From Candidatus Woesearchaeota archaeon (lineage in GTDB: Archaea; Nanobdellota; Nanobdellia; Woesearchaeales; UBA525), in assembly GCA_013331575.1 (NCBI GenBank), contig DUGD01000066.1:1-19561 (forward strand): 19,561 nucleotides of DNA, given 5' to 3'. Below, in pieces: positions 1,899-17,129 of the stretch. How positions within the stretch are numbered: position 1 is the first letter of the stretch; each line of letters starts with the position of its first letter. Below the pieces are notes generated by a model that had not been told where the DNA came from, ran no database searches, and saw only the letters and a list, made by a program, of their open reading frames with translations. The position numbers and the translations under genes are program-made.

Positions 1899-1996
1899 GC
1901 GCTGCCTTGGCGTAAAGCCGAGGCCCGAATTTGCGAGGCGTAAGCCGACGCAACCATGAGGGCCGAGACAATTCACTTGCGTATTCGCCGCAGCGC
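1899..1996 (+). ncRNA. Structured RNA candidate, copy 1
   Basis: Outer helix P1 pairs 1899-1905 with 1990-1996 (GCGCTGC/GCAGCGC). After a CTT bulge (1906-1908) it continues as GGCG 1909-1912 with CGCC 1986-1989. TAAA follows, then linker GCCGA, then P2 1922-1926/1960-1964 (GGCCC/GGGCC). P2 encloses hairpin TTGCG/CGCAA (1931-1935/1949-1953) and GGC-GTAA-GCC with a GNRA-type loop. GAGAC follows P2 directly, and GTAT precedes CGCC. The same core and spacing recur at 16835-16951 with compensatory changes. Strand is not proven; plus is preferred because the unpaired core is purine-rich. No clear promoter precedes it, so it may be a 3' UTR element of the phosphofructokinase transcript. The family is not recognised. 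Confidence 0.6.
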
Positions 1997-2074: not shown

Positions 2075-2104
2075 TACGAAGCCGCAGCGCAGTGGAACGA
2101 ACCG

Positions 2105-2263
2105 AACGATGAGAAGTAGTTGACGACTAATCTTGCCGCAGCACAAACGACGAACGAGAAGATGCAGTTGACGACTATACAATCCAATCATACCCGCCAC
2201 AGCATCCGTAGTCAAGCGATACCATATCAACAACGACGAACAAGAAGTAGTAGTTGACGACTA
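2105..2263. repeat. Three copies of a TTGACGACTA-ended repeat
   Basis: Copies end at 2129, 2177 and 2263. The second (2147-2177) and third (2233-2263) are both 31 nt: ACGACGAAC, then AGAAG, then AGTTGACGACTA with few mismatches. The first (about 2105-2129) is a shortened form. The end has weak dyad symmetry (TAGT-TGACG-ACTA). Spacings are 48 and 86 nt, so it is not a CRISPR. The remaining non-coding bases from 1852 to 2310 hold nothing else I can name. Confidence 0.6.
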
Positions 2264-2310
2264 GAGAAACACATATGCGTTGTATCGGGTAGACGTATCA
2301 ATCACTGATG

Positions 2311-6112: not shown

Positions 6113-6183
6113 TACGGCTGCCGGGGTTCGAACCCGGGACATAAGCTTGGGAAGCTCAGATGTTACCACTACACTACAGCCGT
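6113..6183 (-). tRNA. tRNA-Gly (anticodon CCC)
   Basis: The full cloverleaf is visible. Acceptor ACGGCTG pairs with CAGCCGT. D-stem is GTGT/ACAT. Anticodon stem TGAGC/GCTTA holds loop TTCCCAA with anticodon CCC. T-stem CCGGG/CCCGG has loop TTCGAAC. Discriminator A; CCA is not encoded. No intron. The first pair is A-T. Upstream TATA-like box at 6211-6217. Confidence 0.93.
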
Positions 6184-6217: not shown

Positions 6218-6308
6218 GTTTCTGCAAACCACCACGCAACGGTTCCTGCTGCGGCGAGAGTGGTATTGTCGAAGGCGATGTAATCTCCGAGTTATGGGAA
6301 CGCAATGT

Positions 6309-6341
6309 ACGACGCTAAAGCCCCGCCAAGGCGGCAGTCGT
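6309..6341. other. GC-rich hairpin between tRNA-Gly and lemA
   Basis: ACGAC (6309-6313) pairs with GTCGT (6337-6341), enclosing CCGCC-AA-GGCGG (6323-6334). It follows the poly-T tract after lemA on the minus strand. The inner motif GCCCCGCCARGGCGG recurs at 12891-12905. Confidence 0.45.
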
Positions 6342-6387: not shown

Positions 6388-6954
6388 TCAGAACTCGACC
6401 TTGACGTCTTTCTTGTCCGCTTCGGACACCTTGAACATCTCGGCAGGGGTGAGTTTCATCCATCCGGCGATGATCATGTCCGGGAAGCTCTGCTGCTTGA
6501 TGTTGAAGTTGTTGACGCTGTCGTTGTAGAACTCACGGCGGTCCGCAAGCTCGTTCTCGATGCTGCTGATGCGCGTCTGGAGCTGCGCGAAGCTCTCGTT
6601 CGCCTTCAGGTTCGGGTAGTTCTCCGCGACCGCGAAGATGGTCTTGAGCGCGGCGCTTATCTGGCCGTCCGCTTTCGCTTTCGCGTCGTTGGTCTTCGCC
6701 GAGAGGAGCGCGGTGCGGGCCTTGGTGAGCTCTTCAAGCACCGTCTTCTCATGCTTCAAGTATCCTTTGACCGACGCGATGAGTTTCGGCAGTTCGTCCG
6801 AACGCTGCTTGAGCAGCACGTCGATATTCGCCCACGATTTCTGGATGTTGTTGCGCAATTGCACGAAACCGTTGTAGATGCCGATGCCGTAGCCGATGAT
6901 GGCGATCGCCACCAGGAGCACGGCGAGCACGACGATGATCAATATCCCTAACAT
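6388..6954 (-). CDS. lemA: LemA family membrane protein
   Basis: 188 residues. One N-terminal transmembrane helix (LGILIIVVLAVLLVAIAIIGYG, ~2-23) is followed by a long helical domain. Family hallmarks are visible: QLRNNIQKSWANIDVLLKQR, RSDELPKLIASVKGY, NYPNLKANESFAQLQTRI, and YNDSVNNFNIKQQSFPDMI. Full length for LemA. Function in bacteria and archaea is not settled; it is often paired with membrane partners. Start at ATG 6954 is preferred because GAGGTG lies just before it; a GTG four codons upstream overlaps that site. It is 77 nt downstream of the GIDE-domain gene on the same strand, with no strong TATA box between, so the two are probably one operon. Confidence 0.92.
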   Translation of the reverse strand: MLGILIIVVLAVLLVAIAIIGYGIGIYNGFVQLRNNIQKSWANIDVLLKQRSDELPKLIASVKGYLKHEKTVLEELTKARTALLSAKTNDAKAKADGQISAALKTIFAVAENYPNLKANESFAQLQTRISSIENELADRREFYNDSVNNFNIKQQSFPDMIIAGWMKLTPAEMFKVSEADKKDVKVEF

Positions 6955-15500: not shown

Positions 15501-15959
15501 ATGACGACGCCATTCCAAGAACGAGTATACGACTTGCTGCGCCACGTGCCGCGAGGCAAAGTAACGACATACGCCGATCTCGCGCACGCACTCGGGATGA
15601 ACTGCCCACGCGCGATAGGACAAGCCATGCGCCGTAACCCGTATGCACCAGAGGTGCCATGCCACCGGGTGGTGCGCAGCGACGGGACCATAGGAGGATT
15701 CATGGGAGAGACGAACGGTGCCGCCATCTCCCGCAAACGATCGATGCTCGCGGCTGAAGGAGTGGAAGTCGTGCGAGGCAAAGTGGTCGCGTTTCCGCAA
15801 CGGCACCACACATTCACCGCAACGAATGCCGCACCGAACCATACGACACGACATCATACCGGGCCGAAAATCGATAACGGGCACAATGAGAGCAGAGAAC
15901 GACAGCGTGGAGGACAACGCGGCAGAGAAAGACCGGGATCACACACGAGGAGCATATGA
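15501..15959 (+). CDS. ogt: O6-alkylguanine-DNA alkyltransferase (MGMT/ATase domain)
   Basis: 152 residues. The catalytic domain occupies residues ~1-100: FQERVYDLLRHVPRGKVTTYADLAHALG, then the recognition helix NCPRAIGQAMRRNPY (34-48), active-site Cys C54 in PCHRVV, and GFMGE. Transfers alkyl groups from O6-alkylguanine in DNA to the Cys in one suicide step. The Cys is present, so this is not an inactive ATL. The usual N-terminal domain is absent, and a His/Asn/Arg-rich tail of about 50 residues (from FPQRHHTF) is not part of the family. It reads through to overlap the next gene by ATGA. Weak ribosome site before 15501. Confidence 0.9.
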   Translation: MTTPFQERVYDLLRHVPRGKVTTYADLAHALGMNCPRAIGQAMRRNPYAPEVPCHRVVRSDGTIGGFMGETNGAAISRKRSMLAAEGVEVVRGKVVAFPQRHHTFTATNAAPNHTTRHHTGPKIDNGHNESRERQRGGQRGRERPGSHTRSI

Positions 15960-16750
15960 GCGCGAACATGAACCTATACAGCCACAGATGCCTCGGGTTC
16001 GGCCACCCTGAGAACAGCATGCACGCGCTACGCGACGCGCTCGAATCAGGCATCGAAGGCATAGAGATAGATATCCGCCTCACGAAAGACAGGAAATGGG
16101 TGGTGCTGCACAACCCGTTCTTCGCCGATGAGAGACGCAACGTCGAACGCGTGCACATGAAGACGTACGGCCAGATACGACGCGAAGTGACATTGCTCGA
16201 TACGATGCTCGCGTACATCGCTGCGCGAAGCGAAAGGATGAAACGCAAAACGATACTCATCGACGTCAAGGATGTCGGAGAAGAACGGCAGATAGCACGC
16301 ATGCTCGCATCGTACGACCTCACTGCCGACGCGGTGGTGATCGCATGGGAACCGGAAGTGCTACGTCGCATCAGGAGCATCGACCCATCTATACGCACAG
16401 GGCTATCATACATACCCATCCACTCGACGCTCACATTCCTGCAAGGAGAGTTGAAGACGCCGATAGGCAGGCACAAGGCGGTCCTCACATTCAACAAAGA
16501 GCATAGTTTCGACGCACGGCACAGCGAAGGACACTCGAAACAACATTACCTCGCGACACTACCAGAATTTCCAGTAACATCCATCCAGGTGTACGCCCCA
16601 TTATGCAGCGCAAAACTCGTCCGTCTGGCACACAAAAGAGGCATGAAGGTCATCGCGTTCACGGTGAACAACCGCGTACTTGCGGCATTGCTCAAGCGCA
16701 GAGGCGTCGATGGCATCCTGACCAACGACCCCAAGAAGTTCTTGAAATAA
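15956..16750 (+). CDS. Glycerophosphodiester phosphodiesterase family protein
   Basis: 264 residues, GDPD TIM-barrel. Motifs seen: SHR (H10-R11), HPENS (18-21), EIDIR with metal ligands E37 and D39, and VLHNPFF with general acid H52 (the usual HDP is HNP here). ILIDVKD supplies the conserved Lys. The end FTVNNRVLAALLKRRGVDGILTNDPKKFL is the typical C-terminal strand-helix. No signal peptide, so cytosolic; would cleave glycerophosphodiesters to glycerol phosphate plus alcohol. ATG 15956 overlaps the alkyltransferase stop and has GAGGAG upstream. Last gene of the operon. Confidence 0.92.
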   Translation: MSANMNLYSHRCLGFGHPENSMHALRDALESGIEGIEIDIRLTKDRKWVVLHNPFFADERRNVERVHMKTYGQIRREVTLLDTMLAYIAARSERMKRKTILIDVKDVGEERQIARMLASYDLTADAVVIAWEPEVLRRIRSIDPSIRTGLSYIPIHSTLTFLQGELKTPIGRHKAVLTFNKEHSFDARHSEGHSKQHYLATLPEFPVTSIQVYAPLCSAKLVRLAHKRGMKVIAFTVNNRVLAALLKRRGVDGILTNDPKKFLK

Positions 16751-16834
16751 CGAGGAGCACCACGCGTAGCATCGGGGCGCAGGTATTCTATACAAAGATA
16801 TCACGCTAAGAAGCTCTACGGCAGAACGCCACGA

Positions 16835-16951
16835 CGATGCTGCCTTGGCGCAAACCCGCGGGCGCCGTGTCGGGTACGGCCCGCAGGCCGGGGGCCCCGA
16901 CGGCAACACGGCGCCCGAGACCGGTCCGCGAGTATATCCGCCGCTGCATCG
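16835..16951 (+). ncRNA. Structured RNA candidate, copy 2
   Basis: Homologous in core and spacing to 1899-1996. P1 pairs 16835-16840 with 16946-16951 (CGATGC/GCATCG), then a T:T mismatch and GC/GC, then CTT bulge 16844-16846, then GGCG 16847-16850 with CGCC 16939-16942. CAAA and linker CCCGC follow. P2 is 11 perfect pairs, 16860-16870 with 16906-16916, capped by CGGG/CCCG and hairpin CGGCC-CGCA-GGCCG. GAGAC (16917-16921) directly follows P2, and GTAT lies at 16932-16935. Located in the 407-base gap between the convergent GDPD and tfb genes. A weak TATA-like box (TTCTATAC, ~16787) may drive it. The rest of this gap holds only the tfb terminator. Confidence 0.6.
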
Positions 16952-17129
16952 GAAAACGACGCAGGAATACAGTGTAATAGACAGTGTACGCGCAGCAAGA
17001 AACACCAACACATCAATGCATCGACATCGCACATATTGCGCTCAACAAGAACGGTCGTATAGAGAAACGACAACCCGGGATACGATGAGAACAGAAGAGA
17101 ATAACACACCGCATAGCACGAAGGTAACA

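Follow-up and report, generated by a model that had tools for sequence, protein, structure and literature searches.

Conserved shape, variable sequence and high copy number are properties of folded DNA such as the REP/BIME elements, which are mobilised by Y1/RAYT transposases, and the integron attC sites. Covariation is widely taken as the best evidence for functional RNA, which tolerates G.U pairs and not A.C pairs, and terminal inverted repeats with a flush target-site duplication of fixed length are the signature left when a DDE-type enzyme transposes DNA. The bcr1–bcr18 repeats of the Bacillus cereus group are chromosome-wide intergenic repeats, of which bcr1–bcr3 are MITE-like, while bcr10 and bcr18 have conserved secondary structures and about half of their copies are transcribed, according to the cited passages of PMC3446304. 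ERIC, Correia/NEMIS, CIR, and other small bacterial MITEs are non-coding units of about 100–200 bp with terminal inverted repeats, target duplications, and folded transcripts; in the cited part of the review (PMC2229807), they mostly have TA ends and simple long stems. During replication, template switching can create and repair perfect hairpins by multibase events, and the resulting compensatory changes restore perfect stems without wobble intermediates, as proposed for RNA genes in the cited passages of PMC8794818. Hairpins maintained in this way reflect a mutational process, whereas the copies described here form an element family.

The window analysed is a stretch of 19,561 nucleotides (contig DUGD01000066.1) from a Woesearchaeota archaeon, in which a first-pass annotation had noticed a structured element in two copies. 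We consider, with a probability of about three in four, that this element is a copy of a small, non-coding, non-autonomous, MITE-like mobile DNA element that is dispersed across the intergenic regions of one Woesearchaeota family and, sporadically, across the order. The direct support consists of many copies, their intergenic position (by a rough gene caller), their patchy distribution, and flush 9-bp duplications in the two subtypes that could be tested. The family shares with MITEs its short length, absence of a coding gene, terminal inverted repeats, fixed-length duplication, and presence at many unrelated places. It differs from REP/RAYT in that no Y1 transposase match was found in its own genome and target duplications are present, and from integron cassette arrays in that the window copies lie about 15 kb apart. 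In contrast to the TA ends and simple stems of the reviewed bacterial MITEs, it has 9-bp duplications, GGC ends, a CTT-bulged two-armed stem, and an archaeal host. The bcr repeats, likened here by the description in the cited passages, are bacterial; in the Woesearchaeota element, the closing helix changes independently of the core. It is set apart from the known small MITEs and bcr repeats by its bulged fold with two arms, by its occurrence in an archaeon, and by a closing helix that is not linked to the core. Searches of an open-licence library turned up no publication describing an element of this kind from Woesearchaeota, and it seems to be an undescribed mobile family of uncultured archaea.

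Both window copies were present as first described when the sequence was read directly: a closing helix (P1), a CTT bulge, a GGCG/CGCC helix (P1b), a linker, P2, GAGAC, and then a variable P3. Scores are given for the models R1 (built from the 12 copies of alignment A1), R2, and R3 (the subtype C model); the training rows of R2 took in both window copies, so their R2 scores are not independent of training. Copy 1, of subtype A, occupies positions 1896–1999 of the forward strand by the model boundaries (93.0 bits with R1 and 79.8 bits with R2). Its P1 5' arm (1899–1905) pairs with 1990–1996, both on direct reading and in the model, and is followed by the CTT bulge (1906–1908), which is kept in nearly all copies, and by the P1b 5' arm GGCG (1909–1912), whose partner is CGCC at 1986–1989. 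The linker from P1b to P2 (TAAAGCCGA, 1913–1921) begins with TAAA. P2 with its variable inner hairpin spans 1922–1964, GGCCC at 1922–1926 pairing with GGGCC at 1960–1964, and the GAGAC on its 3' side (1965–1969) is the hallmark of subtype A. The short variable P3 region and the GTAT segment before CGCC take up 1970–1985, and the 3' arms of P1b and P1 lie at 1986–1996.

Copy 2, also of subtype A and on the forward strand, lies at 16834–16952 (57.1 bits with R1 and 51.2 bits with R2). Its P1 pairs 16835–16843 with 16943–16951 with a single T.T mismatch (16841/16945), followed by the CTT bulge at 16844–16846, P1b (GGCG 16847–16850 with CGCC 16939–16942), P2 (GGGCG 16860–16864 with CGCCC 16912–16916), and GAGAC at 16917–16921. 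A probable degenerate third copy was found on the reverse strand at 6243–6340 (R2, 20.2 bits, E 0.0011; R3, 16.6 bits, E 0.014), 48 nt past the stop of a predicted reverse-strand gene (6388–6954); P1, CTT, and P1b are discernible in it, and the interior is not. A tRNA gene (6113–6183, reverse strand, 63 bits) lies just downstream of it. The folding energy was modest for copy 1 (z −2.42) and unremarkable for copy 2 (z −0.08). By eye, P2 of subtype A contains a candidate k-turn. A short motif like GAAGTAGTTGACGACTA occurs at window positions 2100–2270 and recurs in the intergenic DNA downstream of many copies in the same genome.

The first-pass annotation knew no named family with this layout, and this held: the window and seven loci of subtypes A, B, and C gave no Rfam match to such a family at its threshold, nothing matched over either window copy at E ≤ 5, and the only match above the gathering threshold in the window was the tRNA. 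Box C/D and H/ACA RNAs, the hammerhead, and riboswitches do not seem to fit this layout either. In the own genome (G000, 75% complete), a pattern search with CTTGGCGNAAANCC (at most two mismatches) gave 187 matches against 103 for the reversed pattern, and many of the 30 that were read had the full layout. R1 gave at least 136 matches at E ≤ 1 and at least 130 at E ≤ 0.01 there, with 150 of 1211 first-look candidates scored, and R2 gave at least 59 matches at E ≤ 0.01 in G002 (same genus, 95% complete), with 150 of 532 candidates scored.

A search of related archaeal genomes, which had been proposed as a check, yielded homologs that keep the proposed pairs. R1 at E ≤ 0.01 matched eight of 144 genomes: the own genome, G002 and G003 of the same genus, G004, G006, G007, and G008 of the same family, and G038; no R1 match was found in G001 or G005. 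Under stricter filters, which may miss weak matches, R2 matched seven and R3 nine of 371 genomes, the R3 matches spanning six families in the numbering of the genome collection. The window TFIIB is 92–94% identical (best segment) to that of its three best-matching named genomes, all Candidatus Woesearchaeota, and two of the 80 loci from these genomes matched R3 (L121, 85.6 bits; L165, 60.6 bits). In the virus collection, one exact pattern match (L326), lacking P1 and lying within a coding stretch, was judged to be due to chance.

In the 12 copies of A1, P1 is followed by a 5'-side CTT bulge and then by a 4-bp P1b (GGCG/CGCC, also GGAG/CTCC and others). The linker contains YAAANCC and leads to P2, which has variable extra hairpins; after P2 come GAGAC, the short and variable P3, and a segment resembling TAT, and the 3' arms of P1b and P1 complete the layout. 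Subtype A is the form in the window. Subtype B has CCAGAC-P2-GTCGCA and mostly TTGTTGTGGC/GCCACAACAA as P1; subtype C, the form found outside the family of the host, has YCAG-P2 with a conserved GATTYATGCA top and then GACGCA. The CTT-bulged stem is common to all subtypes and the models cross-detect: R3 gives window copy 1 24.1 bits, and alignment A2, made from 104 distinct copies retrieved from the own genome, includes some B and C copies. The core measures about 100–160 bp, and whole subtype-B units 144–248 bp. G004 carries a miniature form, a nearly invariant 29-nt bulged hairpin within a palindrome of 9–13 bp, whose sequence is different in each of the 10 copies matched (L360–L368 and L371).

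Several copies carry additional modules. Some copies (L008, L042, L051, L078, L053:2810-2919, and L197:2530-2629) hold a module of about 40 bases in the CTT bulge, made up of AGTCACTYCGTTCCT and a hairpin; the beginning of this module is reverse-complementary to the P3 of some subtype C copies. Extra perfect hairpins were seen between GATTC and ATGCA atop P2 (L165, L205:15383-15534, L309, L315:1373-1527, and L317:184-338), and similar ones recur in subtype B and in subtype A P2, a pattern resembling an exchange of modules.

The outermost helix of subtype B forms an inverted repeat (GGCTCTTAGGCAA...TTGCCTAAGAGCC) that is directly flanked on its outer sides by direct repeats. For eight core-bearing subtype-B copies, flank identity was 0.75 at length 9 compared with 0.21–0.29 at all other lengths from 4 to 15, and the mismatched-pair control at length 9 had a mean of 0.26 and a maximum of 0.44. 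The individual copies matched at 9, 7, 6, 7, 9, 2, 5, and 9 of 9 bases; a further core-bearing copy outside the eight (L342), which escaped the recognition pattern, matched at 4 of 9. Elements with subtype-B ends and another interior reached 0.52 at length 9 (control 0.28; n = 14, with L337 and L359 each counted twice for alternative left ends), and at least 7 of 9 bases were duplicated for 12 of 17 elements in a second count of partly the same elements. The subtype C copies of G038 have GGCWYAGTAGAAA terminal inverted repeats, and four of 15 showed clear repeats at one register: L314 and L321 at 9/9, and L316 and L319 at 8/9, the latter two set flush by eye (the end-finding mis-set L316:4978 and left one L317 copy unset). 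Among the 189 copies with 120 bases of flank, direct repeats of at least 9 bases between the flanks were found for 13 against 3.0 expected from mismatched pairs. The duplications in subtypes B and C thus indicate that the family moves as DNA, like a MITE. Flanking direct repeats in subtype A were at about background level, although L196 has one of 11 bases. Neither terminal inverted repeats nor target duplications were recognisable for the window copies, which are taken to be mobile by their homology to subtypes B and C.

The search for the moving enzyme covered three Pfam families. Y1_Tnp (PF01797) matched in two of 10 genomes (G006 and G008) and had no match in G000, G002, G003, or G038. DDE_Tnp_1 matched in three of 23 genomes (G006, G010, and G038) and RVT_1 in three of 10, with one match each in G006, G007, and G038; neither family had a match in G000 or G002. 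The element ends were not found at the transposase loci of G006, G010, and G038 or at one reverse-transcriptase locus, except for one element with an unrelated interior near the G006 transposase locus. The lack of a match to these three families in G000 or G002 and the absence of excess flank repeats in subtype A count against the reading as a transposed DNA element. A SINE-like element copied via RNA by a reverse transcriptase would fit the element-bearing genomes G038, G006, and G007, which encode such an enzyme; we regard it as extremely improbable, as the duplication length is fixed at 9 and RVT_1 had no match in the own genome or in the 95% complete G002.

The first-pass annotation had taken paired change around a conserved core as a sign of RNA-level selection. 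The paired changes are real: on direct reading, C1900:G1995 of copy 1 is T16838:A16948 in copy 2, and G1899:C1996 is A16837:T16949. The compensatory changes expected of a functional structured RNA are present in the alignments. Pairing holds in 94.7% of 227 cells in A1 and in 95.6% of 1917 cells in A2, with double changes at 12 and 17 of the 20 pairs, respectively. The covariation score of A2 is 0.572, compared with 0.159 ± 0.008 for shuffles and a maximum of 0.113 on sliding; having been fitted to the structure, A2 is biased in its favour. The conclusion drawn from the paired changes is not supported, as the pairing is nearly pure Watson-Crick with G.T little ahead of A.C, the double changes are clustered, and two subtypes transpose as DNA.

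G.T and A.C pairs numbered 38 and 48 in A2, 20 and 17 in A3, and 15 and 6 in A5 (mainly subtype C, across families); these alignments were fitted to models, so that pair counts lean toward structure and G.U. By helix, the A2 counts of G.T and A.C were 15 and 9 in P1, 1 and 1 in outer P1b, 13 and 3 in P2, 8 and 16 in P3, and 1 and 19 in the innermost P1b pair. P1, outer P1b, and P2 together have 29 G.T against 13 A.C, a count that omits the poorly aligned P3 and the innermost P1b pair. A control of 28 tRNAs from loci of the own and related genomes had 64 G.T and 0 A.C, and this control is generous because the tRNA finder itself favours G.U. The counts for P2 and subtype C show a mild RNA-like lean.

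Between nearest-neighbour copies, double changes at adjacent pairs of one helix were in excess, with 35 in P1 (23.9 expected) and 36 in P2 (23.8 expected), and no linkage of double changes between P1 and P2 was found. For 46 copy pairs that are 70–80% alike, 95 double changes kept pairing, 22 single changes kept it, and 40 broke it; for 11 copy pairs more than 80% alike, 8 kept and 10 broke it, and pairing is thus not perfectly kept between close copies. The wobble counts, the block changes, and the unlinking of P1 from the core indicate that the covariation is mostly not an RNA signal. As the complementarity of the arms looks more like DNA copying, paired changes alone do not show a functional RNA. 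The unpaired motifs CTT and GATTYATGCA are conserved across families and are not accounted for by arm copying; they may serve the transposing enzyme, a host protein, or an RNA function. A multiplied family of trans-acting small RNA genes would explain a fold and core conserved in many copies; it is very improbable given the independent change of P1, the scarcity of wobble pairs, and the target duplications, which point to DNA movement.

P1, the helix on which the argument for RNA selection had leaned, is not inherited with the core. For core identities of 0.80–0.85 (20 copy pairs), the outer five P1 bases were 52% identical and P2 85%; at 0.75–0.80 (40 copy pairs), the values were 48% and 71%, and at 0.40–0.60 the outer P1 was 48% identical, the copy pairs not being independent in any of these classes. 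The exception is a group of four copies more than 0.9 alike, which does share P1. In G004, cores were 90% identical and the outer nine arm bases 40% (45 pairs). A perfect P1 of 7, 8, or 9 bp was found in 69 of 104 copies and a longer one in two. Because the arms match within each copy and yet are not inherited with the core, P1 would be acquired at insertion or rewritten later by arm-to-arm copying.

One way to acquire P1 is that the core inserts into the centre of pre-existing host palindromes or hairpins, so that P1 is prior host sequence. This would account for a self-complementary P1 unlinked to the core and would suit copies that often lie shortly after stop codons. It is disfavoured and, in our view, quite improbable, because hairpins with stems of at least 9 are rare outside the fetched copies (seven in 48 kb of intergenic DNA, at least four of them inside further copies); short palindromes with loops of 0–2 numbered 21 against 9.8 in shuffles, some counted twice, and such sites are thus not wholly absent. 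A rather unlikely variant of the transposed DNA element is that insertion writes a reverse-complement copy of the target flank, each new copy building its own P1 from host sequence, which would explain why P1 nearly always pairs and is not inherited with the core. If true, it would be a new mode of insertion and a general source of covariation without RNA selection. For the MITE-like element as a whole, a putative transposase, presumably of DDE type, would act in trans, and the arms may be kept complementary by copying one from the other, in the case of P1 either at insertion or afterwards by template switching in replication.

According to our own rough gene caller, on which all context counts depend, 103 of the 104 own-genome copies lie outside predicted genes, and no predicted gene was found inside an element. 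For the 98 copies with both neighbours, the orientations relative to the element were ++ for 37, +- for 28, -- for 22, and -+ for 11. Window copy 1 follows a sense phosphofructokinase-family gene (64–1851) and copy 2 a sense GDPD-family gene (15956–16750), both in convergent gaps. At two G002 loci, the element is flanked by the same gene pair as in the own genome and has the same orientation, and for one of these loci the best match among the 104 is likewise the own copy at that place; only element-bearing stretches entered this comparison, so shared places are over-represented.

These positions bear on a reading in which the element would be a 3'-UTR RNA element, a transcribed fold just past stop codons that would set mRNA stability or 3'-end formation, perhaps via a protein, with mobility as its mere means of spread. 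Between co-directional genes, sense copies outnumber antisense ones by 37 to 22 (p 0.067), and by 16 to 6 among the top 40 by score (p 0.052). Convergent gaps outnumber divergent ones by 28 to 11 (p 0.009), and of the 28 copies in convergent gaps, 18 lie closer to the sense stop (p 0.19), as do 10 of 12 among the top 40 (p 0.039). The placement of both window copies, the conserved unpaired motifs, and the 13 G.T against 3 A.C in P2 would suit the same reading. However, the bias is nil in the lower-scoring 64 copies (21/16 and 8/16), 22 copies lie antisense to the genes on both sides, G002 shares few of the positions, the overall wobble signature is unlike that of tRNA, and MITEs in general may be best tolerated in such gaps. 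We therefore hold a 3'-UTR function as the basis of the family to be rather unlikely. An RNA role added to the mobile DNA element, with an effect on neighbouring mRNAs, is possible in view of the weak post-stop sense preference, the mild P2 G.T excess, and the conserved unpaired motifs.

With more than 100 copies in one genome, the family shows overwhelming covariation while wobble, block changes, and P1–core unlinking point to maintenance at the DNA level, and it is a natural case for separating RNA selection from DNA-level causes of covariation. Another element family combines these ends (GGCTCTTAGGCAAA) with a different folded interior (L089:1663-1827, L327:1717-1879, and L373–L379 of G006). 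These ends have 161 matches in G006, and elements bearing them have 9-bp duplications; among the matches listed, which are part of the 161, there was no partner transposase bearing such ends. Many of the matches listed lie near contig starts, and the mobile family may thus hamper the assembly of uncultured archaea.
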